A stretch of 50,640 nucleotides of DNA, taken from the IMG/VR virus record IMGVR_UViG_3300009034_000057, positions 1 through 50,640 of that record. One strand, given 5' to 3'. The position numbers and the translations under genes are program-made. Below, piece after piece: positions 9,077-41,209 of the stretch (positions are counted from its first letter, which is position 1; each line of letters starts with the position of its first letter). This stretch comes from a virus. The notes beneath the pieces are model-generated. The model was not told the origin of the DNA. It worked only from the letters and a program-made list of their open reading frames with translations, and made no database searches.

Positions 9077-9695
9077 CTGTTATATCTTTACTCTCAATAA
9101 CTTTAGTATTATCAATAAGTTTTCCAGCAAGTTTTTCTATTTGCTCGGAAACTATTTTACCATCCAATTTAATAGTTATATTTCTTTTCTCATCAATATC
9201 AATCTTATGTTTACTTTTCCAATTCTCAGAATCAAGATTACATAAAGCAAAGAAAAGAGCATTTGGACTTGGAGGTTGATGTTTGTGAAATACACTTATA
9301 TTCTTTTTTCCTGTTCTATTTCCTTCTACATCCTCAACCCACTTTTCATTTCTTTCCTCATAATCATAACCAGAAGCACATCTAAAAAGTTTAGCTACTA
9401 ATTGTTTAGTAGCTATATCTTTGCCTTCATGATAAGCAGTAAAAACTTGTGGGTATCGATTCTTCCATTCATTAAGAGTACTAATATGAACATTCAGAGT
9501 GTATGCTATAAAATCATCCGGCAGGCCAGCAGCTTTCATCCGAGCTATAGGTTCTACAAAAGAATAATCAAATTTGGCATGGGATTTTAATTGATATTGT
9601 TTCACTGGGTCGCCAAATTTTTTATAATCTTCTTTCTTAGCCTCTTCTTCATTTATTGGTATTCGATTTTTTATCAAATTAGTATAATCAGTCAT
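9063..9695 (-). CDS. terS: Terminase small subunit
   Basis: 210 residues directly upstream of terL with a 14-base overlap. A helix-turn-helix is visible at about residues 55-80 (AAGLPDDFIAYTLNVHISTLNEW...), the DNA-recognition domain of small terminases; the C-terminal part is helical and charged, as in the oligomerisation and portal-binding region. AAAGGA lies before the ATG. Its leader contains a short peptide ORF and two hairpins (9713-9805), suggesting translational control of packaging initiation. Confidence 0.85.
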   Translation of the reverse strand: MTDYTNLIKNRIPINEEEAKKEDYKKFGDPVKQYQLKSHAKFDYSFVEPIARMKAAGLPDDFIAYTLNVHISTLNEWKNRYPQVFTAYHEGKDIATKQLVAKLFRCASGYDYEERNEKWVEDVEGNRTGKKNISVFHKHQPPSPNALFFALCNLDSENWKSKHKIDIDEKRNITIKLDGKIVSEQIEKLAGKLIDNTKVIESKDITDVKD

Positions 9696-10283: not shown

Positions 10284-12131
10284 TTATTTTGATTCACTAT
10301 AATTCTGTCCTATCCCTATTTCAACTGGTAAATCGACCACCATTTGATAAGCTCCTTCCATAGTTTCTTTAATTCTTTTCGCAGCAATTTCCACATATTG
10401 GTCCTTTACTTCAGAAATAACTTCATCATGCACCAATAATACTAATTTAGCATCCCATTCAGGATTATCCAAGAACAATTGTCTAAGTCTAACAGTTGCA
10501 ATTCGTAATATATCAGAACATAATCCCTGAATTAGAAAGTTAAACGCTTGTCTAAAAGCTTTATTTGTTATATCTATAAATCTTCTCTTTCTTCCAAGCC
10601 CATGTCTAACTTCTTTTTGATATATAACTTGCTTCTTAGTCTTAGCCATTGCCTTTCTAACATCAGGATATAAATTAAGAAATCCATTTATCCATTTTTG
10701 AGCTTCTTCTTCACTAATATTAAAATCAAGAGCTAAACCATAAGTTGTCTTTCCATAACATATTGGGAAATTTACTCCATTTTTTCCAATATGGCGTTCT
10801 TTATCATATTTTTCTTTTAATTTTGTATACTCTCTATGAGTAGAAACCAAGGAAGAATCAGGGATAGCAAGATTGAATATATTATTAGCAGTACGAAGAT
10901 GTAAATCATACCCTTTTTCAAAAGCTTTAATAAGGTTTTCATCTTCACTAACCTCCGCAAGACCTCTAAGTTCTTGCCCACTATAATCAGTCACAATTAA
11001 TTTCTTGCCCTTCGGGGCTACAAAACAACTTCTAATGTCAATAGGTTCATTACTCTTTGGCAATTGCTGTAAATTAGGATTTGAAGAGCTTAAACGGCCT
11101 GTAACAGCCACAGTATTATGAAATGAGGTTCTAACTCTTCCATCTTTACAAATATGGTTTGGAAATGGTTCCACAAAGGCATCATAGAGTTTTCTGGCTT
11201 TTTTGTATTTGTCTAACAAATCAATAAATTCGTGTTTTCCTTTCAATTTAAGCATACTAAGTTTTCCAACGCTCAATTTACCACCAGGAGTTTTCTCAGT
11301 TATTTCCAAACCAAGTCGTTTCGTAATAATATTAGTCAATTGCTTAGGACTATTTAAATTGGCAGTAAGAATCTCTTTAGAACCATCAAACAGATTACAC
11401 TGGATTCCATATTTAAGGCCAGCAGCATTAATTAACTTTAATTTTAAATCAAATAATACTTTCTGTAATTCTTTTTTACATTCAATAATCCTACTCTGGT
11501 CAACTAAAACTCCATTTATCTCCAAATCCCTTAAAACAAACTGAAAAGGCATTTCAACCTTAAAAAATAAATCATCTAAACTTTGCCATCGTAATTCCTT
11601 ATCAAAGATTTTATATAATTGCCATGTCCAAATAGGGTCATTTAACGCATATTTATAAAATTCCTCAGAGTGAAAATCAGAATTAACTTGTTCCCATTGT
11701 TTAATCTCATTCTCAGGAATATTGAGATATTTGTGAGCCAAATATTTGAGGTTTTTGGGTTCATTCTCATTAATTAAATGGGCAGCCGTCTGAGTACAGA
11801 ATATTTGATTTGTAACCTCAATTCTATATTCAAAACCAAAATCTAAACAATTGTCTAAAACTTTTAAATCAAATGGAATATTATGAGCAATAAGCTTTTT
11901 AATATCATTTTTAAACTTTCTGCTTAAAAAAGCTTGTATAATTTCAGTATCAGCATTTTGGTATAAATCTATATAACAGGCAGATTCCCCATTACAGAAA
12001 GAAATACCCACAATTTGCATTTCATCCCACTTTAAACTGGTTACCTCAGTATCAAAGGCTAATTTAGAGCAATCATTAAAGGCAAACCATTCTTTAACTT
12101 GATTTAAAGTTGTTAAGACTTGTTTTTCCAC
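10284..12131 (-). CDS. polA: DNA polymerase I (family A) with 3'-5' exonuclease
   Basis: 615 residues. Exonuclease: Exo I AFDTEV (Asp27, Glu29), Exo II AHNIPFDL (Asp88), Exo III YALNDPIW (Asp165). Polymerase: TGRLSSSNPNLQQLP (344-358), motif A VTDYSGQELRG (Asp382), motif B RHIGKNGVNFPICYG (446-460), motif C LVHDEV (His568, Asp569, Glu570). Motif A has SGQE where most have SQIE, and motif B has one extra residue between Lys450 and Phe455. Phe455 is at the Klenow-762 position. There is no 5' nuclease domain. GTG start at 12131 overlaps the 49-residue gene upstream, which holds the ribosome site. It is on the opposite strand from the other replication genes. Confidence 0.95.
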   Translation of the reverse strand: MEKQVLTTLNQVKEWFAFNDCSKLAFDTEVTSLKWDEMQIVGISFCNGESACYIDLYQNADTEIIQAFLSRKFKNDIKKLIAHNIPFDLKVLDNCLDFGFEYRIEVTNQIFCTQTAAHLINENEPKNLKYLAHKYLNIPENEIKQWEQVNSDFHSEEFYKYALNDPIWTWQLYKIFDKELRWQSLDDLFFKVEMPFQFVLRDLEINGVLVDQSRIIECKKELQKVLFDLKLKLINAAGLKYGIQCNLFDGSKEILTANLNSPKQLTNIITKRLGLEITEKTPGGKLSVGKLSMLKLKGKHEFIDLLDKYKKARKLYDAFVEPFPNHICKDGRVRTSFHNTVAVTGRLSSSNPNLQQLPKSNEPIDIRSCFVAPKGKKLIVTDYSGQELRGLAEVSEDENLIKAFEKGYDLHLRTANNIFNLAIPDSSLVSTHREYTKLKEKYDKERHIGKNGVNFPICYGKTTYGLALDFNISEEEAQKWINGFLNLYPDVRKAMAKTKKQVIYQKEVRHGLGRKRRFIDITNKAFRQAFNFLIQGLCSDILRIATVRLRQLFLDNPEWDAKLVLLVHDEVISEVKDQYVEIAAKRIKETMEGAYQMVVDLPVEIGIGQNYSESK

Positions 12132-12262
12132 AGTTTTTCAATTTCCTTTAAATCCTTTACAGCAAGGTCAATAAGCTCTTTACCTTTCATTCTGGCAGCC
12201 ATTTTAGCTAAATCCAGTTTTCTGTAAGTTTCTTTAAATAAATAAGCAATTCTCTTTTCCAT
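12113..12262 (-). CDS. 49-residue helical protein in front of the polymerase
   Basis: ATG at 12262 encodes MEKRIAYLFKETYRKLDLAK... to a TAA inside the polymerase start (overlap 19 bases). The sequence is charged and helical, ending ELIDLAVKDLKEIEKLWKNKS. It is the first gene of the transcript that starts at the perfect promoter 12313-12341 and follows the hairpin leader. The polymerase Shine-Dalgarno AAAGGA lies inside it, so polymerase translation is probably coupled. Family unknown. Confidence 0.6.
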   Translation of the reverse strand: MEKRIAYLFKETYRKLDLAKMAARMKGKELIDLAVKDLKEIEKLWKNKS

Positions 12263-12271
12263 AAGTTTATT

Positions 12272-12313
12272 ATCTTGTGCTTACAGCACAATGATACCTA
12301 AACTGTAAGTTTA
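12272..12313 (-). promoter_or_regulatory. Two-hairpin leader element, copy A (polymerase transcript)
   Basis: On the minus strand: first stem TAAAC-TTACA-GTTTA (12313-12299), then ATC-A-TTGTGCT-GTA-AGCACAA-GAT (12295-12272), a 7 bp hairpin with 3-base loop, extended by ATC/GAT pairing around a bulged A. It matches three other copies (19883, 27251, 28969) in layout while the stem bases differ in compensating pairs. The predicted transcription start (~12306) falls in the first stem, so in this copy only the second hairpin is surely transcribed. Confidence 0.6.
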
Positions 12314-12341
12314 TTATATCAAATTTAAAAACAAATGTCAA
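12313..12341 (-). promoter_or_regulatory. Consensus sigma70 promoter for the polymerase transcript
   Basis: Minus strand TTGACA (12341-12336), 17-base spacer, TATAAT (12318-12313), perfect consensus. Expected start near 12306, about 45 bases before the 49-residue gene. Confidence 0.85.
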
Positions 12342-12361: not shown

Positions 12362-12434
12362 TGGAGAGGGTGGGAATCGAACCCACCACAGGTTGCTTGC
12401 AAGGCATCCTCGCCCCCTTGGTACATGCCTCCCC
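12362..12434 (-). tRNA. tRNA-Ala(UGC)-like RNA with an abnormal D-arm
   Basis: 73 bases, a normal tRNA length. Acceptor GGGGAGG pairs fully with CCTCTCC, including G3:U70, the alanine identity pair; discriminator A73; T-arm GTGGG-TTCGATT-CCCAC is perfect; anticodon loop CTTGCAA gives UGC with one A-A mismatch in the stem (GATGC/GCAAC). The D-arm (CATGTACCAAGGGGGCGAG) does not form a normal stem and instead pairs as GGC-GAGGAT-GCC. CCA is not encoded. Either a divergent or decaying phage tRNA, or a tRNA-like domain of a longer RNA. Confidence 0.6.
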
Positions 12435-12480
12435 TTTCAATTTCCTTTCTTTCTATTATGATTTCTTTTAATATTATATA

Positions 12481-12501
12481 TACAATACATCCTGTATTGT
12501 A
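12481..12501 (-). repeat. Perfect 8 bp dyad, AGGAT loop (copy 2)
   Basis: TACAATAC-AGGAT-GTATTGTA on the minus strand. Same size and same loop as 12537-12557; the two stems differ by one compensating pair (A-T here, G-C there), which favours a structured RNA or a dimer-bound operator over chance. Confidence 0.75.
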
Positions 12502-12536
12502 ATATACTATATATAACTTAAGACAATATATATTAT

Positions 12537-12557
12537 TACAGTACATCCTGTACTGTA
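12537..12557 (-). repeat. Perfect 8 bp dyad, AGGAT loop (copy 1)
   Basis: TACAGTAC-AGGAT-GTACTGTA on the minus strand, about ten bases after the expected transcription start of the promoter at 12574-12601. Pair with 12481-12501, centre to centre 56 bases. Confidence 0.75.
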
Positions 12558-12573
12558 TTCTAATATATTATAT

Positions 12574-12601
12574 ATTATACCATATTTTTCTTAAAAGTCA
12601 A
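12574..12601 (-). promoter_or_regulatory. Sigma70 promoter of the structured RNA
   Basis: Minus strand TTGACT (12601-12596), 16-base spacer, TATAAT (12579-12574). Near-consensus; start expected near 12567. Confidence 0.75.
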
Positions 12602-12686
12602 GTAAAAAATCTTAATTTTTATAAAATTTCTGCGAAATTTTTAGCAGGAAGTATATAATAGGGAGGTTATAGGGATTATATTGTTT

Positions 12687-12702
12687 ATAGCAGGGATGCT
12701 AT
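12687..12702 (+). repeat. Hairpin with AGGGAT hexaloop
   Basis: ATAGC-AGGGAT-GCTAT on the plus strand. The loop, closed by C-G, equals the ARGGAU hexaloop of high-affinity CsrA sites. Three more GGA motifs (GCAGGAAG, TAGGGAGG, TAGGGAT) lie in the 40 bases before it. No clear plus-strand promoter was found upstream, so transcription is uncertain. Confidence 0.5.
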
Positions 12703-12731
12703 GGTTGGCTAAAAATATATAAAAATTTCGG

Positions 12732-12750
12732 AGGCGGTTACCTACCGCCT
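12732..12750. repeat. Inverted repeat AGGCGGT / ACCGCCT
   Basis: Perfect 7 bp arms around TACCT. On the minus strand an A/U-rich stretch with U-runs follows a few bases later, so it might be a weak terminator of leftward transcripts, or an origin-region structure. Confidence 0.5.
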
Positions 12751-13017
12751 TGCATTGCCTCTCTATGGGCGTTCTGCCCCACCTACACCGTCCGATAACA
12801 CGCGTATCCATACAATCACTACAATCATTATATTATGCAAGCTACGTGCGTGCGTGATTCTATAGGGAATTAGTGGGATATAAAACTACCCATCCTACAT
12901 TATCGGACTCACATCACAACGTCCTATAACTACATCAATACTCTACTAAGTCAGTAGGATTAAACAGCCCTTCTATGCGTTCCCTGCTTTATAGTCCGAT
13001 AACACTATTTTCACAAA

Positions 13018-13060
13018 ATTCTCATTTTGTATTTGCATCTTGCTGAGAATGTGCTATACT
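13018..13060 (+). promoter_or_regulatory. Extended -10 promoter with flanking inverted repeat (first early promoter)
   Basis: TGC-TATACT (-10 at 13055-13060, extended) with TTGCAT 16 bases upstream (13033-13038). ATTCTCA (13018-13024) and TGAGAAT (13044-13050) form a 7 bp inverted repeat spanning the -35 region, a possible operator. The expected start is at or within two bases of the ATG at 13069. Confidence 0.55.
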
Positions 13061-13068
13061 CTTAGTAC

Positions 13069-13200
13069 ATGGTAAAACAAGAAAAACAATTTAGCACTTG
13101 CGATTTTTGCTTGTCTCAAAGTGAGGATGTACATATTCGTACAGGTGGTCTTTTACTTTGTGATAAGTGCTACGCGGAATATTTGGAGGCAATAGAATGA
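13069..13200 (+). CDS. 43-residue zinc-ribbon protein, probably leaderless
   Basis: Encodes MVKQEKQFSTCDFCLSQSEDV... with CDFC and CDKC pairs about 22 residues apart, a minimal zinc ribbon. The ATG sits eight bases after the -10 hexamer and has no Shine-Dalgarno, so the mRNA is probably leaderless. First gene of the plus-strand early block; a DNA-binding regulator is plausible but not shown. Confidence 0.6.
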   Translation: MVKQEKQFSTCDFCLSQSEDVHIRTGGLLLCDKCYAEYLEAIE

Positions 13201-13295
13201 CAAAAGAAGAAAAGGAAAGAATAGAGCAAATAGCCGAAGCAAACGAGAAGATATATAACGAGTTCATGAAAAAACTGGCAAATAACGAAAATTAA
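13197..13295 (+). CDS. 32-residue charged peptide
   Basis: ATG overlaps the preceding stop (ATGA). TTTGGAGG lies nine bases upstream. The peptide MTKEEKERIEQIAEANEKIY... is a single charged helix. Function unknown; coupled to the zinc-ribbon gene. Confidence 0.5.
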   Translation: MTKEEKERIEQIAEANEKIYNEFMKKLANNEN

Positions 13296-13297
13296 AT

Positions 13298-13325
13298 TTG
13301 GCTTTTTTGTTTTCTATATTATACT
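13298..13325 (+). promoter_or_regulatory. Probable promoter of the 13460 gene
   Basis: TTGGCT (13298-13303), 16-base spacer, TATACT (13320-13325). It gives a leader of about 130 bases that contains the AGGGAT-loop hairpin at 13378-13400. Confidence 0.45.
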
Positions 13326-13377
13326 TTAATACAGACAGTAGTGTTGAAATGGGATGCCGATGGCCCGAAACACCGGA

Positions 13378-13400
13378 CTTGTTGGCAGGGATGCCGCAAG
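13378..13400 (+). repeat. Hairpin with AGGGAT hexaloop in the leader of the 13460 gene
   Basis: CTTG-TT-GGC-AGGGAT-GCC-G-CAAG: inner GGC/GCC stem closing an AGGGAT loop, with a second CTTG/CAAG stem outside a small internal loop. The same inner stem recurs at 13719, 27432 and (minus) 12410. Confidence 0.6.
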
Positions 13401-13459
13401 CAATTATACTGTTTTGTAAACTGTTTCTTTGACAAGTGAATAGTTTGGAGGATTGAAAG

Positions 13460-13708
13460 ATGGCAAGAAAGAAAGTGCCGGAGAACGAGACACCGCGTCA
13501 AAAGTTTGTACGGCTGGCAAATTATCGCTCGGCCAAAGCCATCCAATTTATACTAAGTATTGGCAGTTTGGCAAATAGCCAATACAAGTATACTGAGGAT
13601 GATGTGGAAGTAATTACCACGGCATTGAGCGATGCGACCGAAGCATTGCTGAATCGGTTTGCGAATCCCACGATGCCGAAGCAAGCAAGGAATTTAATCC
13701 AAGTCTGA
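13460..13708 (+). CDS. 82-residue conserved-looking hypothetical protein
   Basis: Starts MARKKVPENETPRQKFVRLANYR..., followed by a helical region with SIGSLANSQYKYTEDDVEVI. The pattern of a basic, Pro-containing head and KF.RLA...A...I..I..L.N small helical body recalls small uncharacterised bacterial and phage proteins. TTGGAGGATTGAAAG precedes the ATG. Role unknown; its long structured leader suggests post-transcriptional control. Confidence 0.7.
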   Translation: MARKKVPENETPRQKFVRLANYRSAKAIQFILSIGSLANSQYKYTEDDVEVITTALSDATEALLNRFANPTMPKQARNLIQV

Positions 13709-13718
13709 GGATTAAAAT

Positions 13719-13741
13719 AGGCAAGGATGCCTTTTATTTTT
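13719..13741 (+). terminator. Terminator-like hairpin with AAGGAT loop
   Basis: AGGC-AAGGAT-GCCT followed by TTTATTTTT, right after the 13460 gene. It has the shape of a weak intrinsic terminator and at the same time displays the CAAGGAUG motif. Confidence 0.6.
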
Positions 13742-13772
13742 GCAATTATATCAATTATTTGGAAAGATAACT

Positions 13773-13907
13773 ATGTCAACAAAAACTAAAAGAATACTAT
13801 TGGGCATACTGTTAGCACCTATTTGGATTCCCGGATTGACTATCCTTTATGGTGTATTCTTTTTAATTTCTATTTTTCACTATATTGTTACAGGTGAAAA
13901 ATTGTAA
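13773..13907 (+). CDS. 44-residue membrane protein
   Basis: MSTKTKRILLGILLAPIWIP then a long hydrophobic stretch (LTILYGVFFLISIFHYIV) and a charged end: one or two membrane helices with a positive-inside N-terminus. TTTGGAAAG ribosome site. Early membrane peptide of unknown role. Confidence 0.55.
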   Translation: MSTKTKRILLGILLAPIWIPGLTILYGVFFLISIFHYIVTGEKL

Positions 13908-13928
13908 ACCTATATAAGGGGATTGAAA

Positions 13929-14072
13929 ATGTCAAAACATATAACATTTTGTTGTGATATATACTGTTGGGATTTCTTGCCCACAATTTGTTTAGAATTG
14001 GAAGTTGTTGATACTTATTATTTGATTTTTAGGTGGTTCTGTTTTGGGTTTACAATTAGTTGGAGAAGATAA
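13929..14072 (+). CDS. 47-residue hypothetical peptide
   Basis: ATG at 13929 follows AAGGGGATTG. Cys- and Trp-rich (FCCDIYCWDFLP...), hydrophobic, with a C-terminal SWRR. Possibly membrane-associated. No family recognised. Confidence 0.4.
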   Translation: MSKHITFCCDIYCWDFLPTICLELEVVDTYYLIFRWFCFGFTISWRR

Positions 14073-14073
14073 A

Positions 14074-14157
14074 ATGTTCTGGCAAGATATAAAAGCAATA
14101 CTGTTTCCAAGAGAAGTCTGGGTTTTAGCTATATTGGCGTTTATGGCTTTTTGTTAG
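14074..14157 (+). CDS. 27-residue membrane peptide
   Basis: MFWQDIKAILFPREVWVLAI..., a short amphipathic head and one hydrophobic helix. The ribosome site is TTGGAGAAG inside the end of the preceding frame. Function unknown. Confidence 0.4.
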   Translation: MFWQDIKAILFPREVWVLAILAFMAFC

Positions 14158-14166
14158 GAAGAAAAA

Positions 14167-15542: not shown

Positions 15543-16514
15543 ATGCCTTCCGAAATAACTACAGTTAAATGTTACGAATGTGGGGATTCAGTTGAATCAA
15601 AATATGCTATAGAGACTGGATACAACTATTATTGTGAAGATTGTTTTTGTGATATATTTTCCCATTGTAATAGTTGTAACATTATAATCTATACAGATGA
15701 ATCATACTTATTTGAAGGCGAACAACTTTGTCAAGATTGTTATGCGGAATATAATTCACCATCTTCTAATCCTGATTTATATAATTCTTCTTATCGCCCT
15801 ACTTGGGGTTTTTATAAATCTGCACAAGATTCCCCAAGAAATAATTTATATTTTGGAATAGAATTAGAAACTGAATGTGAAGATGAGGATGTGCGACAAG
15901 AGCTTATAGATTCTTTACCATCTTATATGTATGCTAAAGAAGATGGAAGTTTAACTGAATTAGGTGCTGAAATAGTTTCTCACCCTGCTACTTATAAATG
16001 GTTAAAAGAAAATATATTAGAATGGCAAAAAATCTTGGATTTTAGAAAACATGGTGTTAGAAGTTATATTGATACTGATTGTGGAATACATATTCACATG
16101 ACAAAAGATGCTTTTACTACAAATCATCTTTATAGATTCTTAAAGTTATTTTATGATAATCCAAATTTTATACTAAGAATAAGTCAGCGTCAATCTATGA
16201 GCTGTTTGAATAGTTGGGCAGTTTTAACAGGTGATAATGAAAGTATAAAATATAAAGCTGAATCTAAAACCTCTCGTTATAGAGGAGCAATAAACTTAAA
16301 AAATGAAGATACTATAGAAGTTAGAATATTCAGAGGAACATTGAATCCTGGTTCGTTTTGGAAAAATATAGAGTTTTGTCAGGCTGTGTATAATTTCACA
16401 AGAAGAAACCCTGTTCAAGATATTAGAGTTTTTAATTTTACACGCTATGTAAAAAGATGCAAAAAGAGGTTTCCAAATTTATATCAGTTCATGAAACGAA
16501 AGGAAATGATATGA
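15543..16514 (+). CDS. Amidoligase-like enzyme A with two N-terminal zinc modules
   Basis: 323 residues. Residues 10-66 hold two zinc-binding units (C10/C13 with C31/C34; C42/C45 with C63/C66). The rest matches the glutamine-synthetase-fold 'putative amidoligase' family (Amidoligase_2): YFGIELETE (103-111), KEDGSL (132-137), AEIVSHP (142-148), CGIHIHM (180-186) and EVRIFRGTLN (259-268), which carry the metal/ATP-binding Glu, His and Arg residues. Members are predicted to form an amide bond between a carboxylate and an amine. It is followed by two small genes and a class II glutaminase, and the whole set is repeated. Substrate unknown. Confidence 0.85.
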   Translation: MPSEITTVKCYECGDSVESKYAIETGYNYYCEDCFCDIFSHCNSCNIIIYTDESYLFEGEQLCQDCYAEYNSPSSNPDLYNSSYRPTWGFYKSAQDSPRNNLYFGIELETECEDEDVRQELIDSLPSYMYAKEDGSLTELGAEIVSHPATYKWLKENILEWQKILDFRKHGVRSYIDTDCGIHIHMTKDAFTTNHLYRFLKLFYDNPNFILRISQRQSMSCLNSWAVLTGDNESIKYKAESKTSRYRGAINLKNEDTIEVRIFRGTLNPGSFWKNIEFCQAVYNFTRRNPVQDIRVFNFTRYVKRCKKRFPNLYQFMKRKEMI

Positions 16515-17038: not shown

Positions 17039-17902
17039 ATGTGTCTCGCTTTATACAAACCAGCTAATAGATTTATTCCTAAAGCTCACTTGAGAATAGG
17101 TTGGCAAATAAATGATGATGGTGGTGGTTTTATGTGGGCTTCCGATGGACAACTATATATAGAAAAGGGCTATTTTGATTTTAATGCTTTTTATAAAGCT
17201 TTTAAAAGAGCAGAAAAAGCATTTCCTAAATCAGATTTTGTTTTACATTTGCGATTAGCTACTTCCGGTCTGAAAAACATAAATAACTGCCACCCTATAA
17301 TGATAAATAATAAAGTAGCTTTTGTCCATAATGGTATATTGATAGGTTTTGGCTGTGAGTTAAAATCTGATAGTATTGATTTTGGAGAACAAATTTTACA
17401 AAAACTTCCTGAAGATTTTATAATATCTAAAGGTTACCAATTCTTACTGGATAAATATTGTCAAGAGCATTTCTCTAAAATGATATTTATGAATAATAAA
17501 GGCAAAGCTTATATTGCTAATATAGATGGGGGTGATTGGGAAAATGGAATTTGGTATTCTAATACGTCTTATAAACAAAATATAGTTTCTAAAAATCCCA
17601 TTGTCTGGACAGAACCAAAAGTTATATTTGATGGTAGTACATACAACAGAGGGCTAAAATATGTAGGGGCTTCAGCTTACTATGTGACTTGTTGTATATG
17701 TAATAAACGACTTAGAAAAATGGATACTGTAGCAGCAGGGAATGTGTATTGTTGTAAAGATTGTGTTGAGATGCTGTACGCTTATTCTCCTTATTGTAAA
17801 ATATGTGAATCAGATACTTTTATTTTTAAGGAACAATGTATTAAATGTGGAAGAAAAATTTCTAAGGAAGAAGTTATAATTCAAGCAGTAGAAGGATATT
17901 AA
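17039..17902 (+). CDS. Class II glutamine amidotransferase-like protein A with zinc-binding tail
   Basis: 287 residues. Begins Met-Cys: Cys2 would be the N-terminal nucleophile after Met removal. Family marks follow: NDDGGGFMW (25-33), HLRLATSG (70-77), NCHPI (83-87) and FVHNG (95-99), as in glutaminase (Ntn) domains that release ammonia from glutamine. Residues 218-270 carry four Cys pairs (CCIC, CCKDC, CKIC, CIKC), i.e. two zinc ribbons. No synthase domain is attached, so ammonia or a glutamyl product is probably passed to a partner, most likely the neighbouring amidoligases. Same architecture as 19103-19843. Confidence 0.85.
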   Translation: MCLALYKPANRFIPKAHLRIGWQINDDGGGFMWASDGQLYIEKGYFDFNAFYKAFKRAEKAFPKSDFVLHLRLATSGLKNINNCHPIMINNKVAFVHNGILIGFGCELKSDSIDFGEQILQKLPEDFIISKGYQFLLDKYCQEHFSKMIFMNNKGKAYIANIDGGDWENGIWYSNTSYKQNIVSKNPIVWTEPKVIFDGSTYNRGLKYVGASAYYVTCCICNKRLRKMDTVAAGNVYCCKDCVEMLYAYSPYCKICESDTFIFKEQCIKCGRKISKEEVIIQAVEGY

Positions 17903-17904
17903 AT

Positions 17905-19101
17905 ATGCCTACAACCTCAGAATTTGTGTGTTGTACCTGTGGAAGAATTAGAAATTCCTATTCTGATGTAAAGGAATTTAAGGACAAAATCTATTGCTAT
18001 CGGTGTTTTGAGCATTACTTTTCACGTTGTATGCTATGTGGGGTTTATAATAAAAGAACTCTTTTGCAAAGGAAGGGAAATTACTCAAGATTATGTAAAA
18101 ACTGTAGGAAACTTTTTGGCAAGTGTGGTATTTGTGAAGAGCTTGAATATATTCCACATTTTAGAATATATGACGATATAAATTATTGTGCTTGTTGTGC
18201 TGATAGCTACCTTAGGCTTTGCCATCGCTGCAATAATTATGTTTTGGCAAGTGATACAAGTCTTGATGGTTTTGGTTATATATGCAATGAATGTGATGTG
18301 CAGCCAAGAGTAAGAGACTATAGTTATAGACCTAATCCTATTTTTATGTTGGGCAGCTATGAAAAGCAACTACCTGAGAATTTGTATTTTGGAGTAGAAT
18401 TAGAAGTAGAATTTCCTCCTAATAATTTTGAAACAAGTAGTTGGGGGTCTATTGCAGAATATACATTAGGACTTCTTCCATCTTTTGTTTATGCAAAAAC
18501 AGACAGTAGTGTTGAAAAGGGTTTTGAAATTGTATCTCATCCTATGACTTACAAATGGTTAAAGGAAAATATAAAAGATTGGGAGAAAATTTTAGACTTG
18601 CGGCATAAAGGGTATATTAGCTATAATACAAAAACTTGTGGTATGCACATTCATTTGAGCAAAACAGCATTTGGTAGTTTTCACCTTTATAAATTTATGA
18701 AGTTCTTCTATGAAAATGTTGCTTTTGTATTAAAGATTAGTCAAAGGGATAGCAAGAGAGAAATAAAACGCTGGGCTTCTTTTGACAATGTAGATGATGC
18801 AACTGTATTATATAAGGCTAAGTATAAAAGAGGAGGACCAGAAAGACACGTTGCGGTTAACATTAATTCTGAGGATACTGTGGAAGTTAGAATATTTAAA
18901 GGTACGTTAAATCCTATAAGTTTTTGGAAAAATATAGAATTTTGCAAATGTGTATATGATTTTACTAAAGACCACTCCAACAAATGTATTAATGTAGATA
19001 CTTTTAAAGATTATATTAAATCACATAGAAACACTTTTCCCAATTTGTATAATTTTCTCTTCAAGAGAGGCTGTGTAACTTTAAGTAAAGTGGAGGGTTA
19101 A
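17905..19101 (+). CDS. Amidoligase-like enzyme B with four N-terminal zinc modules
   Basis: 398 residues. Residues 9-130 hold about eight Cys pairs (CCTC, CYRC, CMLC, CKNC, CGIC, CACC, CHRC, CNEC), twice as many as copy A. The catalytic part repeats copy A: YFGVELEVE (161-169), FEIVSHPMTYKWLKEN (207-222), CGMHIHLSK (245-253), EVRIFKGTLNP (327-337). The two copies are similar throughout the core but diverged at DNA level, so the duplication is old. Follows glutaminase A by two bases and precedes glutaminase B by one. Confidence 0.85.
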   Translation: MPTTSEFVCCTCGRIRNSYSDVKEFKDKIYCYRCFEHYFSRCMLCGVYNKRTLLQRKGNYSRLCKNCRKLFGKCGICEELEYIPHFRIYDDINYCACCADSYLRLCHRCNNYVLASDTSLDGFGYICNECDVQPRVRDYSYRPNPIFMLGSYEKQLPENLYFGVELEVEFPPNNFETSSWGSIAEYTLGLLPSFVYAKTDSSVEKGFEIVSHPMTYKWLKENIKDWEKILDLRHKGYISYNTKTCGMHIHLSKTAFGSFHLYKFMKFFYENVAFVLKISQRDSKREIKRWASFDNVDDATVLYKAKYKRGGPERHVAVNINSEDTVEVRIFKGTLNPISFWKNIEFCKCVYDFTKDHSNKCINVDTFKDYIKSHRNTFPNLYNFLFKRGCVTLSKVEG

Positions 19102-19102
19102 T

Positions 19103-19843
19103 ATGTGTATTATAATATACAAACCTGCTGGCACAACTATTACTAAGAATACTTTAAGGAATTGTTGGGAGAACAATTCAGATGGTGGTGGCTTTATGTA
19201 TGCTGCCGTTGGGCAATTAGTAATATATAAAGGATTTGATAGTTTTAGGAAAATGTATAAAGCTTTTAGGGCACATGAAAATTATTTTTCTGGTAAGGAT
19301 TTTGTCCTTCATTTCAGGATTGCAACTTCTGGATTAAAAGATAAAGATAACTGTCACCCCATTAAAATAAATGAGAACTTGGCCTATGTTCATAATGGTA
19401 TTCTATCCGGTTTTACTCACATGGAAGCTAAACGCTCTGATACTTTTTTGTTTGGGAATAAGATATTAAGTAAATTAGATAAGAATTTTATAAAAAGTTC
19501 TGCAACAATTAAACTTTTAGAAACTTATGCTAAGTCAGAGCAATCTAAATTTGTATTTATGAATAACAAAGGTGATTATCTTATTGTTAATCAACAGGGC
19601 GGTTATTGGGAAGATGGTATATGGTACTCCAATTATGGCTATAAGTGGAGAAATCAGACTTTTGGTTTCAGTTATTGCGGTTACAACAATAATGTCAGTA
19701 TGAGTATGTGTGCTGGTTGTGGGGCTTATTTTGATATTATGGAACTTGACATTTGTATGGATAATTACTGTTATTGCAGTGATTGTCAAGAATCTTTGCA
19801 AAAACGATTAAAATATCCAAAAAATTCTTTAACAAAGACTTGA
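19103..19843 (+). CDS. Class II glutamine amidotransferase-like protein B
   Basis: 246 residues. Met-Cys start, NSDGGGFMY (25-33), HFRIATSG (70-77), NCHPI (83-87), YVHNG (95-99): the same nucleophile and binding motifs as 17039-17902, with a shorter tail holding one zinc ribbon (CAGC, CYCSDC). Last gene of the duplicated cassette; the promoter at 19840-19868 overlaps its final codons. Confidence 0.85.
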   Translation: MCIIIYKPAGTTITKNTLRNCWENNSDGGGFMYAAVGQLVIYKGFDSFRKMYKAFRAHENYFSGKDFVLHFRIATSGLKDKDNCHPIKINENLAYVHNGILSGFTHMEAKRSDTFLFGNKILSKLDKNFIKSSATIKLLETYAKSEQSKFVFMNNKGDYLIVNQQGGYWEDGIWYSNYGYKWRNQTFGFSYCGYNNNVSMSMCAGCGAYFDIMELDICMDNYCYCSDCQESLQKRLKYPKNSLTKT

Positions 19844-19868
19844 CAAATAGGTGGAAATGTGGTATAAT
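19840..19868 (+). promoter_or_regulatory. Consensus sigma70 promoter for the replication operon
   Basis: TTGACA (19840-19845), 17-base spacer, TATAAT (19863-19868), perfect consensus. Start expected near 19875, just ahead of the two-hairpin leader. Confidence 0.88.
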
Positions 19869-19882
19869 ATAAGGTAGAAATG

Positions 19883-19923
19883 TTAAGCTTACGGCTTAAT
19901 CATCATCAAGCAAAACTTGAGGA
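19883..19923 (+). promoter_or_regulatory. Two-hairpin leader element, copy B (replication operon)
   Basis: TTAAGC-TTACG-GCTTAA (19883-19899), then ATC-A-TCAAG-CAAAA-CTTGA-GGA (19902-19923). The first hairpin has the 5-base Y-U-A-Y-R loop, the second the same ATCA lead and bulged A as the other copies but a different stem sequence (TCAAG/CTTGA). The Shine-Dalgarno GAGGAG overlaps the 3' edge of the second stem, so folding could mask it. Confidence 0.65.
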
Positions 19924-19929
19924 GAAAAA

Positions 19930-20112
19930 ATGAAACAATTTAGGAAATGGTGGCATAAACACAGAGCGTCTATAGACCCACATACTTGTCAATCTTCAAA
20001 AGGCGAAACTTTAAGGATGTTAGCTGATGAAGAAGTTTGGAGGGCAGCTTTGAAATGGGCATTAACTAAAAGTGAATTAGGTATTGAAGAGGAATTAAAT
20101 ACAAGATGTTAA
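19930..20112 (+). CDS. 60-residue hypothetical protein
   Basis: First gene after leader copy B. MKQFRKWWHKHRASIDPHTCQ..., a basic aromatic head and an acidic helical tail (ELGIEEELN). Family unknown. Confidence 0.6.
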   Translation: MKQFRKWWHKHRASIDPHTCQSSKGETLRMLADEEVWRAALKWALTKSELGIEEELNTRC

Positions 20113-24658: not shown

Positions 24659-25449
24659 TGATACGAGTATCTAAAGATATGCCTTGTCCTATATGTAAGA
24701 AAGAAGATTGGTGTATGGTTTCTCCTGATGGTAAAGCAGCAATATGTCCTCGTATTCCAAGTGATAAAATTATAGGTGAATCAGGGTTTCTTCACATACT
24801 TAGCAAAGACTATAAACCTGTTAAGATTAAAAAGAAATATCAAGTACCTATAAATTGGGATGCTTTAAATACTTTCTATCAGAAAAGGTGCAATGATATA
24901 GTTTTGCAACCTTTGGTAGAAGAATTTGGTTATACTAATTTAAAACGTATGGGTATAGGCTATGATGGGGAATCCTGGACATTTCCCATGCGAAATTCAG
25001 AGGATGAAATTATAGGTGTTCAACGAAGGTTTCTTAATGGGGATAAAAGATTTGTTAAAGGAAGTAAAAATGGTTTGTTTATTCCAAGAGGATTAAATAT
25101 TGCTGCCTCTGAAATATTAATATGTGAGGGTGTATCTGATACTATTGCTGCTCTTGATATGGATTTTGAAGCTATAGGTAGAGTAAGTTGTGGTACTGGT
25201 GTGCAGATGTTATGTGATTATTTCACTTATCAGGTTTCTTCTCCTAAGATTATCATTGTAGCTGATAATGATTTAGTGGGGATTCAAGGAGCTAAAAAAC
25301 TTGCAGAAGCTTTAATCGCTGTAAACCGTATAGCCCATGTAATCATTCCTCCAGTTGCAGACCTAAGAGCCTGGAAAGAAAGTGGTCTTACAAAAGAAGA
25401 ATTGACAGAAAAATTGGATTTAGCTCTTGACAATTTGAATGGAATATGA
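24658..25449 (+). CDS. DNA primase with zinc finger and Toprim domain
   Basis: 263 residues. N-terminal CPIC...WC...C zinc motif (about 9-31), then a linker and a Toprim fold: ILICEGVSDTIAAL (catalytic Glu) and IIVADNDLVGIQGA (DxD-like). This is the compact phage primase type that primes for the short DnaB-like helicase encoded upstream. The end of the gene contains a perfect promoter for the next gene. Confidence 0.88.
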   Translation: MIRVSKDMPCPICKKEDWCMVSPDGKAAICPRIPSDKIIGESGFLHILSKDYKPVKIKKKYQVPINWDALNTFYQKRCNDIVLQPLVEEFGYTNLKRMGIGYDGESWTFPMRNSEDEIIGVQRRFLNGDKRFVKGSKNGLFIPRGLNIAASEILICEGVSDTIAALDMDFEAIGRVSCGTGVQMLCDYFTYQVSSPKIIIVADNDLVGIQGAKKLAEALIAVNRIAHVIIPPVADLRAWKESGLTKEELTEKLDLALDNLNGI

Positions 25450-25455
25450 TATAAT
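25427..25455 (+). promoter_or_regulatory. Consensus sigma70 promoter inside the primase gene
   Basis: TTGACA (25427-25432), 17-base spacer, TATAAT (25450-25455), perfect consensus. The expected start (~25462) coincides with the ATG at 25462, predicting a leaderless or nearly leaderless mRNA. Confidence 0.85.
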
Positions 25456-25461
25456 AAAGAG

Positions 25462-25905
25462 ATGAGAATGAAAAAACAAAACGGATTCTATTGGCATATT
25501 CACCATGATAAATTAATCGAATGGTGTTACAATTATCGGGAACGAGTATATTTTATCAAAAAGTATAAACCAAAAAACGAAATCAAAACTCGTTTAAGAT
25601 TATGCCAACCAGTTAAGGGTAAACTGCCTATTGAATTTGTCAAGACATGGGAAGCCCATATTAAGACATGGGAAGCCTATGGTAAGGCATGTAATGCCCA
25701 TGACAAGGCACGGAAAGCCTATTATGGTAAGGCAAAGGAAGCCTATGACAAGACAAGGATAGCCTGTAATAAGGCATGGGATGCTCGTAATAGGGCACAG
25801 GAAACTTATAACAAAGTGCGAAAAATCTACAAAGAGGAAATAGAAGCCTTACACGCAAAGGAATGTCCTAATTGTATTTGGAATGGTGAAGAGTTAAAGT
25901 TTTAG
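25462..25905 (+). CDS. Heptad-repeat protein with conserved ends (KA..AY.KA family)
   Basis: 147 residues. N-terminal domain ...FYWHIHHDKLIEWCYNYRERV... RLRLCQPVKGKLP, then about nine 7-residue repeats of K-A/T-x-x-A-Y/H-x (25634-25820), then ALHAKECPNCIWNG. The same arrangement, with variable repeat numbers, occurs in an uncharacterised family I recall from environmental phage and bacterial genomes. The repeats would form a long charged helix. The HIHH and the ECPNC ends could bind metal. It has its own perfect promoter. Function unknown. Confidence 0.75.
   Translation: MRMKKQNGFYWHIHHDKLIEWCYNYRERVYFIKKYKPKNEIKTRLRLCQPVKGKLPIEFVKTWEAHIKTWEAYGKACNAHDKARKAYYGKAKEAYDKTRIACNKAWDARNRAQETYNKVRKIYKEEIEALHAKECPNCIWNGEELKF
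25634..25815 (+). repeat. 21-base coding repeats with AAGGCA..GGA..GCC core
   Basis: Eight or nine direct repeats of 21 bases (one of 24) inside the gene, each like AAGGCA-nGGAAn-GCC-TAT. Besides encoding heptads, several can fold as GGC/GCC hairpins with a GGA in the loop, resembling the intergenic GGA-loop hairpins. Confidence 0.65.
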
Positions 25906-26524: not shown

Positions 26525-27046
26525 ATGGATGATAGACATTGGGCAATAATTATATTGGCTTTCCTGGTTCTATATGTTATTGTTTGTATAAGTGGTTGTC
26601 AACAGGCATATAGAAAGCCAGAGCCGGAAAGACCCCCTACTTATTTTGAGATTCATATTGTTAAGCATCTTAATTGGATGGTTCTTGTGTCTATAGTTGG
26701 AGTAGCATTAGGTATAGCAGCTATGTTAAATGGAGCTAAATATGCTGTTCCTCTTATTGTGGGCTGCTTGGGTTCATTGGGACTAAGTATAGCTGTGGCT
26801 ACTTATTCTAAGTATATAGCTATATATGCTTTTATTGTTGCTGGTGTGGTATTTATTTATAGTGTGTTCTTAAAAGATAGAGCATTGAAAGAGATTGTTA
26901 CAGGTGGTGAAAACTTTAAAAGTAAATGTCTATTACCTGCTCCTACAGAAAATTATGCTGCAAAAGAAATGTTCAAAAGAGCACATAATAATGTACAATC
27001 TAAAACTACTCAGCAAATGGTGAAAAAGATTAAGGCTATAATATGA
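26525..27046 (+). CDS. Predicted lipoprotein with several membrane helices
   Basis: 173 residues. N-terminal hydrophobic segment ends in ISGCQQ (Cys at about 25), a lipobox. Then WMVLVSIVGVALGIAAMLNG, VPLIVGCLGSLGLSIAVA and IAIYAFIVAGVVFIYSVF are three helices, followed by a charged tail ending MVKKIKAII. No homolog recognised with certainty. As the only sizeable membrane protein of the early block it is a candidate for a lysis or envelope function, which is inference. Confidence 0.6.
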   Translation: MDDRHWAIIILAFLVLYVIVCISGCQQAYRKPEPERPPTYFEIHIVKHLNWMVLVSIVGVALGIAAMLNGAKYAVPLIVGCLGSLGLSIAVATYSKYIAIYAFIVAGVVFIYSVFLKDRALKEIVTGGENFKSKCLLPAPTENYAAKEMFKRAHNNVQSKTTQQMVKKIKAII

Positions 27047-27267
27047 GTAAATCAGATGCAGGAAAAGGTGATACTCCCAGACCAGTTAATAAAAAGAAAT
27101 ATGATGAAGGGTATATACGGATATTTGGTCAGACATGTCCTAATTGTGAGGGATTAGGGATAGAAAGATTATATCCTCCATCTGCAATTATTGATGAAGA
27201 TGTATATGTTTATTGTAGTAAATGTAATGGTAAAGGTAAAGTATATGATGTTAAGCCTACAGCTTAA
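27043..27267 (+). CDS. 74-residue protein with DnaJ-type zinc motif
   Basis: Begins MSKSDAGKGDTPRPVNKKKY..., a start shared by a common phage family, and has CPNCEGLG and CSKCNGKGK, two halves of a CxxCxGxG zinc centre. The last codons GTTAAGCCTACAGCTTAA are also the first hairpin of leader copy C. Function unknown. Confidence 0.75.
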   Translation: MSKSDAGKGDTPRPVNKKKYDEGYIRIFGQTCPNCEGLGIERLYPPSAIIDEDVYVYCSKCNGKGKVYDVKPTA

Positions 27268-27291
27268 TCATCATTGTGTGAAACACAAGAT
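27251..27291 (+). promoter_or_regulatory. Two-hairpin leader element, copy C
   Basis: TTAAGC-CTACA-GCTTAA (27251-27267), then ATC-A-TTGTGT-GAA-ACACAA-GAT (27270-27291). The first hairpin includes the upstream stop codon. No consensus promoter lies just upstream, so here the element acts within a longer transcript or uses another promoter. Downstream genes: a membrane peptide, then the nucleotide enzymes. Confidence 0.7.
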
Positions 27292-27317
27292 ATTAATAAG
27301 TTGAAAGGGGAATGATT

Positions 27318-27404
27318 ATGGTTACTGTAATTGTATGTTTAGGCATTGGCTACTTGTTGTCAATAGTGACGTGGCCGTTGGTAAAGAAAGTCTTGCGATT
27401 GTAA
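27318..27404 (+). CDS. 28-residue membrane peptide
   Basis: The AAAGGGG site fits the ATG at 27318 better than that at 27312. MVTVIVCLGIGYLLSIVTWP... is one hydrophobic helix with a basic end (KKVLRL). First gene after leader copy C. Confidence 0.5.
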   Translation: MVTVIVCLGIGYLLSIVTWPLVKKVLRL

Positions 27405-28397: not shown

Positions 28398-28563
28398 TAT
28401 ACCAAAAAAATATAGAAAATTGTACCAAAAAGCTGTTTCTGGACGCAGTAGGAAGGCTGCTATACGTAGTTTCTGTTTAGAATGTGTGGGGTATATAGAG
28501 AAAGAAGTGCCTATTTGTACTGATGGGGCTTGCCCACTATATAAATATAGATTAAAAGGATGA
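28387..28563 (+). CDS. 58-residue Cys-rich protein of a common phage family
   Basis: MERDIPKKYRKLYQKAVSGRS..., then SRKAAIRSFCLECVGY, ICTDGACPLYKYR. The pattern KAAI.AFC.EC.GY....V..C....CPLY.YR is frequent in phages; four Cys suggest zinc. Starts inside the end of the previous gene; overlaps the HNH gene as ATGA. Confidence 0.75.
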   Translation: MERDIPKKYRKLYQKAVSGRSRKAAIRSFCLECVGYIEKEVPICTDGACPLYKYRLKG

Positions 28564-28919
28564 GCAAGCGTAGAAGAAAACAAGAGTTAATGGGCTTATA
28601 CAAACAGGCGGTAGACCAGTGCTGTAATCCTGATTGCAGCTTTGGCTATGGATTAGAAACTCACCATATCATTCCTATTGCTAAAGATGGATTAGATGAA
28701 TTTGTTAATTATATAATTTTGTGTGCTGGTTGCCATAAAATAAGGGGCATTCACTCCAGATATAGTAAGACACAGATAGAACTTCTAACCTATAAGTTTT
28801 ATATAGAAAAGATGAGATTTGGTTGCTGTTCTGATGATGTGGATTATGAGGTTTTTAAAGGCATTTTGAAGAAATATGTAAACTTTAAGAAATCTGTGAA
28901 AGCAAATGATAAAAATTGA
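28560..28919 (+). CDS. HNH endonuclease
   Basis: 119 residues. CCNPDCSFG, LETHHIIPIAKDGLDEFVNYIILCAGCHK hold the HNH fold: His-His, Asn and His on a zinc-stabilised beta-beta-alpha scaffold. It may be a homing nuclease or part of DNA processing. No intron was seen nearby. Followed by a stable GC hairpin and leader copy D. Confidence 0.82.
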   Translation: MSKRRRKQELMGLYKQAVDQCCNPDCSFGYGLETHHIIPIAKDGLDEFVNYIILCAGCHKIRGIHSRYSKTQIELLTYKFYIEKMRFGCCSDDVDYEVFKGILKKYVNFKKSVKANDKN

Positions 28920-28934
28920 TTTTGGAGGATTCTT

Positions 28935-28952
28935 CCCCCTTTAAAGTGGGGG
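28935..28952 (+). terminator. CCCCC/GGGGG hairpin after the HNH gene
   Basis: CCCCC-TTTAAAGT-GGGGG, a very stable stem in AT-rich DNA. No U-run follows, so termination would be weak or factor-dependent. It isolates leader copy D from upstream structure. Confidence 0.45.
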
Positions 28953-28968
28953 TCTGAGGCTTAATTTA

Positions 28969-29009
28969 TTGAGTCTATGACTCAATTATCATTGTGCAAA
29001 GCACAAGAT
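28969..29009 (+). promoter_or_regulatory. Two-hairpin leader element, copy D
   Basis: TTGAGT-CTATG-ACTCAA (28969-28985), then ATC-A-TTGTGC-AAA-GCACAA-GAT (28988-29009), then GTGGAGGATGAT-ATG. The cleanest copy: both stems 6 bp and perfect, the second extended by ATC/GAT around a bulged A, with the Shine-Dalgarno three bases downstream. Confidence 0.75.
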
Positions 29010-29021
29010 GTGGAGGATGAT

Positions 29022-29231
29022 ATGAGTGAAATACCTTGTGATAGCTGTAATAATGAGGCAGATTGTATACCAAGGGTGTCGCGCCAAGCGGAAATCCTGC
29101 AAGGATTATGTAGGGATGGAGCGGAGCCAAAGCGCGAAGAGGGGGCAATTTGGTGTGCTTGTACCGAATGCACAGAGCGCCGTGAGCAATTAAAGCAACA
29201 TCAGCAAGCCCTGAAAGGCGGTGGAAAATGA
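29022..29231 (+). CDS. 69-residue zinc-binding protein of foreign composition
   Basis: MSEIPCDSCNNEADCIPRVS... and IWCACTECTERR supply six cysteines. The central part is clearly GC-richer than its neighbours (GCGCCAAGCGG, GGAGCGGAGCC, GAGCGCCGTGAG), suggesting recent transfer. First gene after leader copy D, GGAGGA site. Family unknown. Confidence 0.65.
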   Translation: MSEIPCDSCNNEADCIPRVSRQAEILQGLCRDGAEPKREEGAIWCACTECTERREQLKQHQQALKGGGK

Positions 29232-40714: not shown

Positions 40715-41209
40715 TTATCCAAAGTTATTGTATTTCCTCAAATATCCAATAGCTCTTATTAAGTTACTTATATGTTCTTTAGCAAAACCTATTGTGCTAT
40801 TACAATTACCACAAAGTAACCCTCTAATTTTTCCAGTTTTATGATTATGGTCAATACATAATCTCTTGTCTAATTCAGATTGATGTATTTTACAAATAGC
40901 ACAACATCCATCCTGTTCCTTAAATAATCTAATCCAAGCTTCCTTCCTTTGTTTAAAAGGTATTTCAGACTTACTACAATAAAAATTCTCTTCATTCCAT
41001 TTCTTATTTCGTTTCAGAACTTTTTCCTTATTCTTTTTATAATATCCTTGTTTCTCTTTTATTCTTGGTCCTTGTTTTCTGGAACGCTTTTTACAACATT
41101 CTTTACATTGATTCTTATATCCATCTTTTACAATCTTATCTTCATAAAAATCTTTTATGGCTAAAAGTTTGCCACAATCAATACATATTCTCAAACATGA
41201 CATAGCCAT
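40715..41209 (-). CDS. Endonuclease VII-type HNH nuclease, intact
   Basis: 164 residues. N-terminal zinc motif CIDCGK...CKECCKK, basic middle, then CCAICKIHQSELDKRLCIDHNHKTGKIRGLLCGNCNSTIG: the endonuclease VII core with DHNH. Closely related to the frame-broken copy at 2632-3061. It lies at the border between tail genes and the glycan cassette, where a mobile nuclease could have helped bring in the cassette. Confidence 0.85.
   Translation of the reverse strand: MAMSCLRICIDCGKLLAIKDFYEDKIVKDGYKNQCKECCKKRSRKQGPRIKEKQGYYKKNKEKVLKRNKKWNEENFYCSKSEIPFKQRKEAWIRLFKEQDGCCAICKIHQSELDKRLCIDHNHKTGKIRGLLCGNCNSTIGFAKEHISNLIRAIGYLRKYNNFG

Follow-up and report, generated by a model that had tools for sequence, protein, structure and literature searches.

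Multi-site translational regulons of double-stranded DNA phages are best known from T4. In this phage, the proteins gp32 and gp43 repress translation of their own mRNAs, gp43 by acting via a hairpin located ~40 nt upstream of the start together with the ribosome-binding site, and gp32 by way of a site that forms a pseudoknot (PMC3014915). The put sites of phage HK022 comprise two stem-loops downstream of the early promoters, span ~70 nt and have long, multiply bulged stems (PMC9378689).

The DNA analyzed here (the window) is an IMG/VR virus contig record of 50,640 nt. Identical stretches of 99 bases are found at both ends of the record, and this terminal overlap, together with the classification of the record as a virus contig, indicates a circularly closed phage genome of ~50.5 kb, whose G+C content is 34%. 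The gene of a family A DNA polymerase (pol) is located at 10284-12131 on the minus strand (phrog_17, E 1.2e-121). Scans against Pfam and PHROG identified a DnaB-type helicase, an SSB, a Toprim primase-like protein, exonucleases, a dATP/dGTP pyrophosphohydrolase and, as a weak match, a deoxyribosyltransferase on the plus strand, and the terminase and structural genes on the minus strand. The polymerase is about 31% or less identical to those of annotated phages, and 50% identical to those of the nearest IMG/VR contigs. Single-sequence scans with pol and the helicase (against viral contigs) and with the terminase (against genome contigs) returned no close relative, and an alignment-based scan with pol delineated a clade, in which the polymerases are 38-50% identical.

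Several other features of the genome were observed. Amidoligase-like proteins encoded at 15543-16514 and 17905-19101 appear to be duplicated, and so does a second pair, at 17039-17902 and 19103-19843, both members of which match one region of the relative L036. A 21-bp tandem-like coding repeat (25621-25830) is located inside an ORF (25462-25905) with a weak alanine-zipper match and a perfect promoter of its own (25427-25455). Possible homing enzymes are two proteins with endonuclease VII domains, 2632-2874 and 40715-41209 (minus), and an HNH endonuclease, 28560-28919 (plus).

Anatomy, covariation and folding of a two-hairpin element

Read in the sense direction, the element consists of hairpin 1 (5-6 pairs, loop YTAYR), 2-3 nt, ATC, an unpaired A, hairpin 2 (5-6 pairs, small loop) and GAT. 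In copy A (12272-12313, minus) hairpin 1 is TAAAC-TTACA-GTTTA, followed by GGT and ATC-A-TTGTGC-TGTAA-GCACAA-GAT; in copy B (19883-19923, plus) it is TTAAGC-TTACG-GCTTAA, followed by TC and ATC-A-TCAAG-CAAAA-CTTGA-GGA; in copy C (27251-27291, plus) TTAAGC-CTACA-GCTTAA, followed by TC and ATC-A-TTGTGT-GAA-ACACAA-GAT; and in copy D (28969-29009, plus) TTGAGT-CTATG-ACTCAA, followed by TT and ATC-A-TTGTGC-AAA-GCACAA-GAT. A preliminary description had listed four copies with such loops, ATCA and a bulged A, often closed by GAT, and all of them were read directly: ATCA is present in all four, while GAT closes copies A, C and D and is replaced by GGA in copy B. Copies B, C and D constitute an ungapped repeat family of exactly 41 nt, in comparison with which copy A has a shortened hairpin 1 and a lengthened loop 2. 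Hairpin 1 of copy C includes the stop codon of the ORF before it (27043-27267). Loop 1 of copy D contains an ATG (28977) in frame with the 69-codon ORF that follows, and judging from the reading frame, part of this copy could in principle be translated from it. Shortly 5' of copy D (28935-28955) there is also a hairpin CCCCC-TTTAAAGT-GGGGG without a T run, which is absent before the other copies.

The loop YTAYR and ATCA are constant across the copies despite changes in the stems, where swaps are evident both in hairpin 2 (TTGTG/CACAA versus TCAAG/CTTGA) and in hairpin 1 (TTAAGC/GCTTAA versus TTGAGT/ACTCAA). These four related sequences are a small set, and the structure itself was derived from them, which calls for caution; among them, 7 of the 15 pairs are altered on both sides between copies, as compared to a mean of 2.0 in shuffled data, with none of 500 shuffles reaching 7; moreover, 96.6% of pair cells are kept across the four copies, and the covariation is lost when partner columns are slid by 1-3 positions. 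A descriptor comprising a 5-bp hairpin with a YTAYR loop, then ATCA and then another 5-bp hairpin gave 4 matches on both strands of the window against a mean of 0.03 and a maximum of 1 in 60 dinucleotide shuffles, a comparison that is not an independent p-value, since the descriptor was written after the copies had been seen. In a motif-free scan, where each double hairpin was compared with all others of the same geometry in its genome and the unpaired letters were scored, the B/C pair ranks first with a score of ~15, the best shuffled score being 6.8 (one shuffle per genome, ten genomes). The earlier claim that the stems vary yet stay paired is thereby upheld. Among the ten genomes scanned, the window included, only the window has a family of double hairpins that keeps its pairs while the stems change. 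Stronger scores in genome G020 turned out to come from identical terminal duplicates, and a pair in G008 (score 11.2) has one compensatory pair only.

According to folding energies, hairpin 1 is favored in copies B and D, and the MFE fold of B has both hairpins, while A and C favor an extended hairpin 2 built with the 3' arm of hairpin 1. This arm also has alternative partners near the start codon, namely GTTTA/TAAAC in A, GCTTA/TAAGT in C and ACTCA/TGAGT in D. One could imagine a conformational switch that operates without any protein, in which the 3' arm of hairpin 1 pairs either with its own 5' arm or with the segment adjacent to the start codon; alternative pairing is indeed used in the MFE folds of A and C, but for each copy a comparable match is to be expected in 11-16% of random segments, and in B there is no such match, so that the pairing is not significant and the switch appears improbable. 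The strength of the duplex between the element and its own initiation region is remarkable in copy D only. Complementarity between loops 1 and 2 (TTACA/TGTAA) was noticed by eye in copy A only, and a kissing interaction was rejected for this reason.

A covariance model built from the four copies assigns them 51.7 (A), 58.5 (B), 64.3 (C) and 63.0 (D) bits, all four being training members, and in the window its only credible matches are these copies and their opposite-strand mirror images, with no fifth copy. The search of relatives with such a model, suggested in the preliminary description, yielded no instance outside this genome (closest pol ~50% identical): in 28 related records nothing was found at a meaningful E-value (best E 0.118, discounted), and none in 80 other pol-bearing loci. 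Absence from related genomes, which had been named beforehand as an outcome that would refute the element, was found as far as could be searched; since the related records are without exception distant and in many cases fragmentary, this absence is informative at ~50% pol identity and not closer. In IMG/VR, the pattern ATCATTGTGN{3,8}CACAAGAT matched 26 viral contigs, of which 0 have hairpin 1, and the pattern TTRAGYYTAYRRCTYAANNATCA gave no matches. BLASTN of copy C against phages returned chance matches only. Rfam 15 has no match to the whole window at the gathering cut-off, and permissive scans around A, C and D gave only sub-threshold ones, in keeping with the earlier statement that no described family has this form.

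The absence from relatives, together with the sharp 41-nt edges, is what might be expected of a dispersed mobile or REP-like repeat devoid of a regulatory role. We consider such an origin hardly probable, as the positions are all at gene starts rather than scattered, and drift would break pairs that are in fact nearly all kept. No REP-associated or transposase-type match was found among the proteins scanned, which cover the small ORFs in part.

Position of the copies with respect to genes and promoters

All four copies are co-directional with transcription, and the first ATG is located 9 (A), 6 (B), 20 (C) and 12 (D) nt downstream of the end of the element. The preliminary description, which placed the copies just before start codons of units carrying the polymerase, replication genes and nucleotide enzymes, was right about the distance, the sense orientation and the content of the units, but these ATGs belong to small head ORFs of 48, 60, 30 and 69 codons (A-D) and not directly to pol or the enzymes. 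Behind copy A, a 48-codon ORF predicted from sequence (12116-12262, minus) overlaps the start of pol and has no clear Shine-Dalgarno sequence. Copy B is followed by a 60-aa ORF (19930-20112, plus) without a Pfam match, whose GGAG abuts hairpin 2, and by an exonuclease/SSB/helicase/primase unit. A predicted hydrophobic ORF of 30 codons (27312-27404, plus), with AAAGGGGA upstream, comes first after copy C, in a unit with the dATP/dGTP pyrophosphohydrolase and the weak nucleoside deoxyribosyltransferase match. Copy D precedes a 69-aa ORF (29022-29231, plus), also without a Pfam match, with GGAGG 2-3 nt past the element, and a unit encoding an RNase H-like exonuclease; all these functions were assigned by Pfam/PHROG matches. 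The proposed proximity of a hairpin to the Shine-Dalgarno sequence thus holds for B and D, where the latter adjoins or nearly adjoins hairpin 2, but in C it is further down and in A none is recognizable.

Two perfect sigma-70-type promoters (0 mismatches) are found next to copies A and B, for which transcription starts are expected from the usual promoter-to-start spacing. The promoter at 19840-19868 (plus) should start transcription at ~19875, i.e. ~8 nt 5' of hairpin 1, so that copy B would be transcribed whole. The promoter TTGACA-N17-TATAAT at 12313-12341 (minus) overlaps hairpin 1 of copy A, the final T of the -10 box being the first base of its 5' arm; the expected start (~12306) falls in loop 1, hence the transcript from this promoter should not include that arm. 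The earlier notion of a two-hairpin leader accordingly fits copy B, but not the transcript that copy A's own promoter would produce. RNA initiated there folds into one longer stem, GTTTA with TAAAC. Judging from this arrangement, hairpin 1 of copy A can only form in RNA that reads through from the upstream promoter and tRNA-Ala (anticodon TGC; 12362-12432, minus); either copy A acts via hairpin 2 alone, or it acts in read-through RNA, or the palindrome has a role in DNA. The sequence of tRNA-Ala itself includes GGCGAGGATGCC. Copies C and D are intercistronic within a rightward operon, and the promoter scan found no plus-strand promoter directly before them. The idea that the element regularly accompanies strong promoters was dismissed, as it is present at only 2 of the 4 perfect promoters.

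The palindrome of copy A, which spans the -10/start region, would suit a site acting at the DNA level, where a phage repressor or a replication or recombination protein binds palindromes in duplex or extruded DNA. Operators conserve the sequence of their half-sites, while here both arms vary together, what is conserved on the sense strand includes the non-palindromic loop and ATCA, and each of the four copies faces the sense direction close to a start codon, all of which makes a DNA site quite unlikely.

Factor-independent antitermination, in which a nascent two-hairpin RNA of the put type binds RNA polymerase so that terminators are read through, is another scenario to which we give little credence: the element has two hairpins and copies A and B lie close behind strong promoters, but its 41 nt contrast with the ~70 nt and long, multiply bulged stems of put, two copies (C and D) have internal positions close to start codons, and copy A would be missing one arm of a hairpin. 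A somewhat better, though still unlikely, candidate is a 5' or intercistronic element of mRNA stability or processing, whose hairpins block decay dependent on the 5' end or mark sites of cleavage with no dedicated protein. It would explain why two copies head transcripts and two lie between cistrons, and why structure outweighs stem sequence, as for a simple barrier, but such a barrier has no need of a kept YTAYR loop, ATCA and bulged A, and the transcript of copy A would start within hairpin 1. Moreover, for RNase III, stems of 5-7 bp would be on the short side.

A candidate CsrB/RsmZ-like RNA upstream of pol

A separate observation concerns the region 12470-12610 (minus), just upstream of tRNA-Ala, where two hairpins, TACAGTACAGGATGTACTGTA and TACAATACAGGATGTATTGTA, are located behind a TTGACT-N17-TATAAT promoter; four further CA(N)GGATG hairpins are found on the plus strand (12687, 13386, 13719 and 27432). 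CAGGAUG in a hairpin loop is the CsrB repeat, and it is close to the CsrA SELEX consensus. Candidates are also seen in the relatives L139 (9345-9490), L123 (8888-9045), L138 (7255-7392), L122 (4345-4470) and L036 (about 9330-9560), and several relatives have multiple such hairpins upstream of pol, their regions having been picked by eye. In an alignment of four records (G022, G006, G021 and G005), AGGATG and CGCAGG are kept while their neighbors vary, and a promoter is located directly upstream in 3 of the 4. Among the clade records, GGA is the commonest of the 64 cores in hairpin context (33 versus a mean of 10.6, the next reaching 21). In a fixed block of 850 nt upstream of pol, CA(N)GGA shows no strand bias across the whole clade (60 versus 55), which confines the GGA-hairpin signal to certain members.

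No CsrA gene was found in this phage or in 22 relatives, so host CsrA would be the target. Rfam has no match for the GGA-hairpin RNA, and among titles in the literature on CsrA/RsmA and phages or on TwoAYGGAY none points to a comparable CsrA sponge in a phage. We regard the RNA upstream of pol, both here and in several relatives, as a candidate promoter-driven CsrB/RsmZ-like sponge. In the same neighborhood, the motif CTGCGAA is found a short distance before the pol promoter in seven relatives (G001, G005, G006, G009, G012, G021 and G022), and its reverse complement is present in the window near 12640; it is possibly a protein-binding site. The ~1.6 kb between the divergent units (12550-14160), with few convincing ORFs and many short inverted repeats, is a possible regulatory or origin region.

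Proposed function and comparison with known systems

The sense orientation of the two-hairpin element, its proximity to start codons and the changes that keep its structure point to the RNA level, where it probably acts as a control element. Since the loop and ATCA are kept, a binding partner is suggested rather than a bare barrier, and as copies C and D have no plus-strand promoter, it is not simply a feature of transcription starts. Our preferred reading, to which we give a probability of about 0.4, is that of a lineage-specific cis-acting mRNA element, bound by a trans factor at the site where the ribosome docks. Hairpin 2 in mRNA, which has a base of 3 bp, a bulged A and a small loop, would be recognized by the candidate factor, and hairpin 1 would join in the recognition where it is transcribed. 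The factor would probably be phage-encoded, perhaps a replication protein, and its binding beside the start site would alter the initiation of translation at the small head ORF and at the genes coupled to it, whereby the polymerase, replication and nucleotide genes would be tuned together. The translational operator proposed in the preliminary description is likewise inferred by analogy; the effect could have either sign, repression, as in T4, being the default guess. The inconstant distance to the Shine-Dalgarno sequence, the better folding of A and C with hairpin 1 opened and the restriction to only four copies in one genome count against a cis-acting mRNA element of this kind, and there is no RNA-binding protein among the Pfam and PHROG matches of the proteins scanned. 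A more specific proposal, that of a novel type of phage RNA operator, in which one phage RNA-binding protein reads the two-hairpin mark (YUAYR loop and bulged-A hairpin) on four separate mRNAs and thus governs a post-transcriptional regulon of polymerase, replication and nucleotide genes, is doubtful. If true, it would be a second multi-site translational regulon, in a double-stranded DNA phage unrelated to T4, and the strategy would not be a peculiarity of T4; a compact operator defined by structure, on polymerase and replication units, would then serve as a small and testable RNA tag for its putative partner. With evidence from one genome, the claim is a modest one.

As in structured cis-regulatory RNAs, the element is in sense orientation upstream of coding regions in 4 of 4 cases (the small head ORFs). 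Its covariation is seen within four copies of one genome, with no homolog in the 28 related records. It resembles the operator of MS2-type coat proteins in having a bulged A in a short hairpin near the Shine-Dalgarno sequence, but here the bulge is far from the loop, there is a second hairpin and the loop sequence is different; besides, this is a double-stranded DNA phage without such a coat protein. The operator of T4/RB69 gp43 is likewise a small hairpin upstream of a start codon in a phage mRNA for a replication gene (PMC3014915). It comprises one hairpin, at the gene of a family B polymerase only, whereas here two hairpins occur in four copies, the polymerase is of family A (copy A being upstream of it with the 48-codon ORF intervening), and binding would be by inference. 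The gp32 operator is a leader of a replication gene bound by a replication protein, and an SSB is also encoded by this phage, although its binding here would be hypothetical; the gp32 site is a pseudoknot, none of which was seen here. HK022 put shares the two stem-loops, and it too has more than one site in the phage, namely two behind early promoters, but it extends over ~70 nt with long bulged stems, as opposed to 41 nt, stems of 5-7 bp and an internal position of 2 of the 4 copies, so that size and stem form exclude the element from this family. Thus, in function the element comes closest to the operators of T4 gp43 and gp32, and in outline to HK022 put; it belongs among the phage leader RNAs, in a form that matches neither these families nor any in Rfam.
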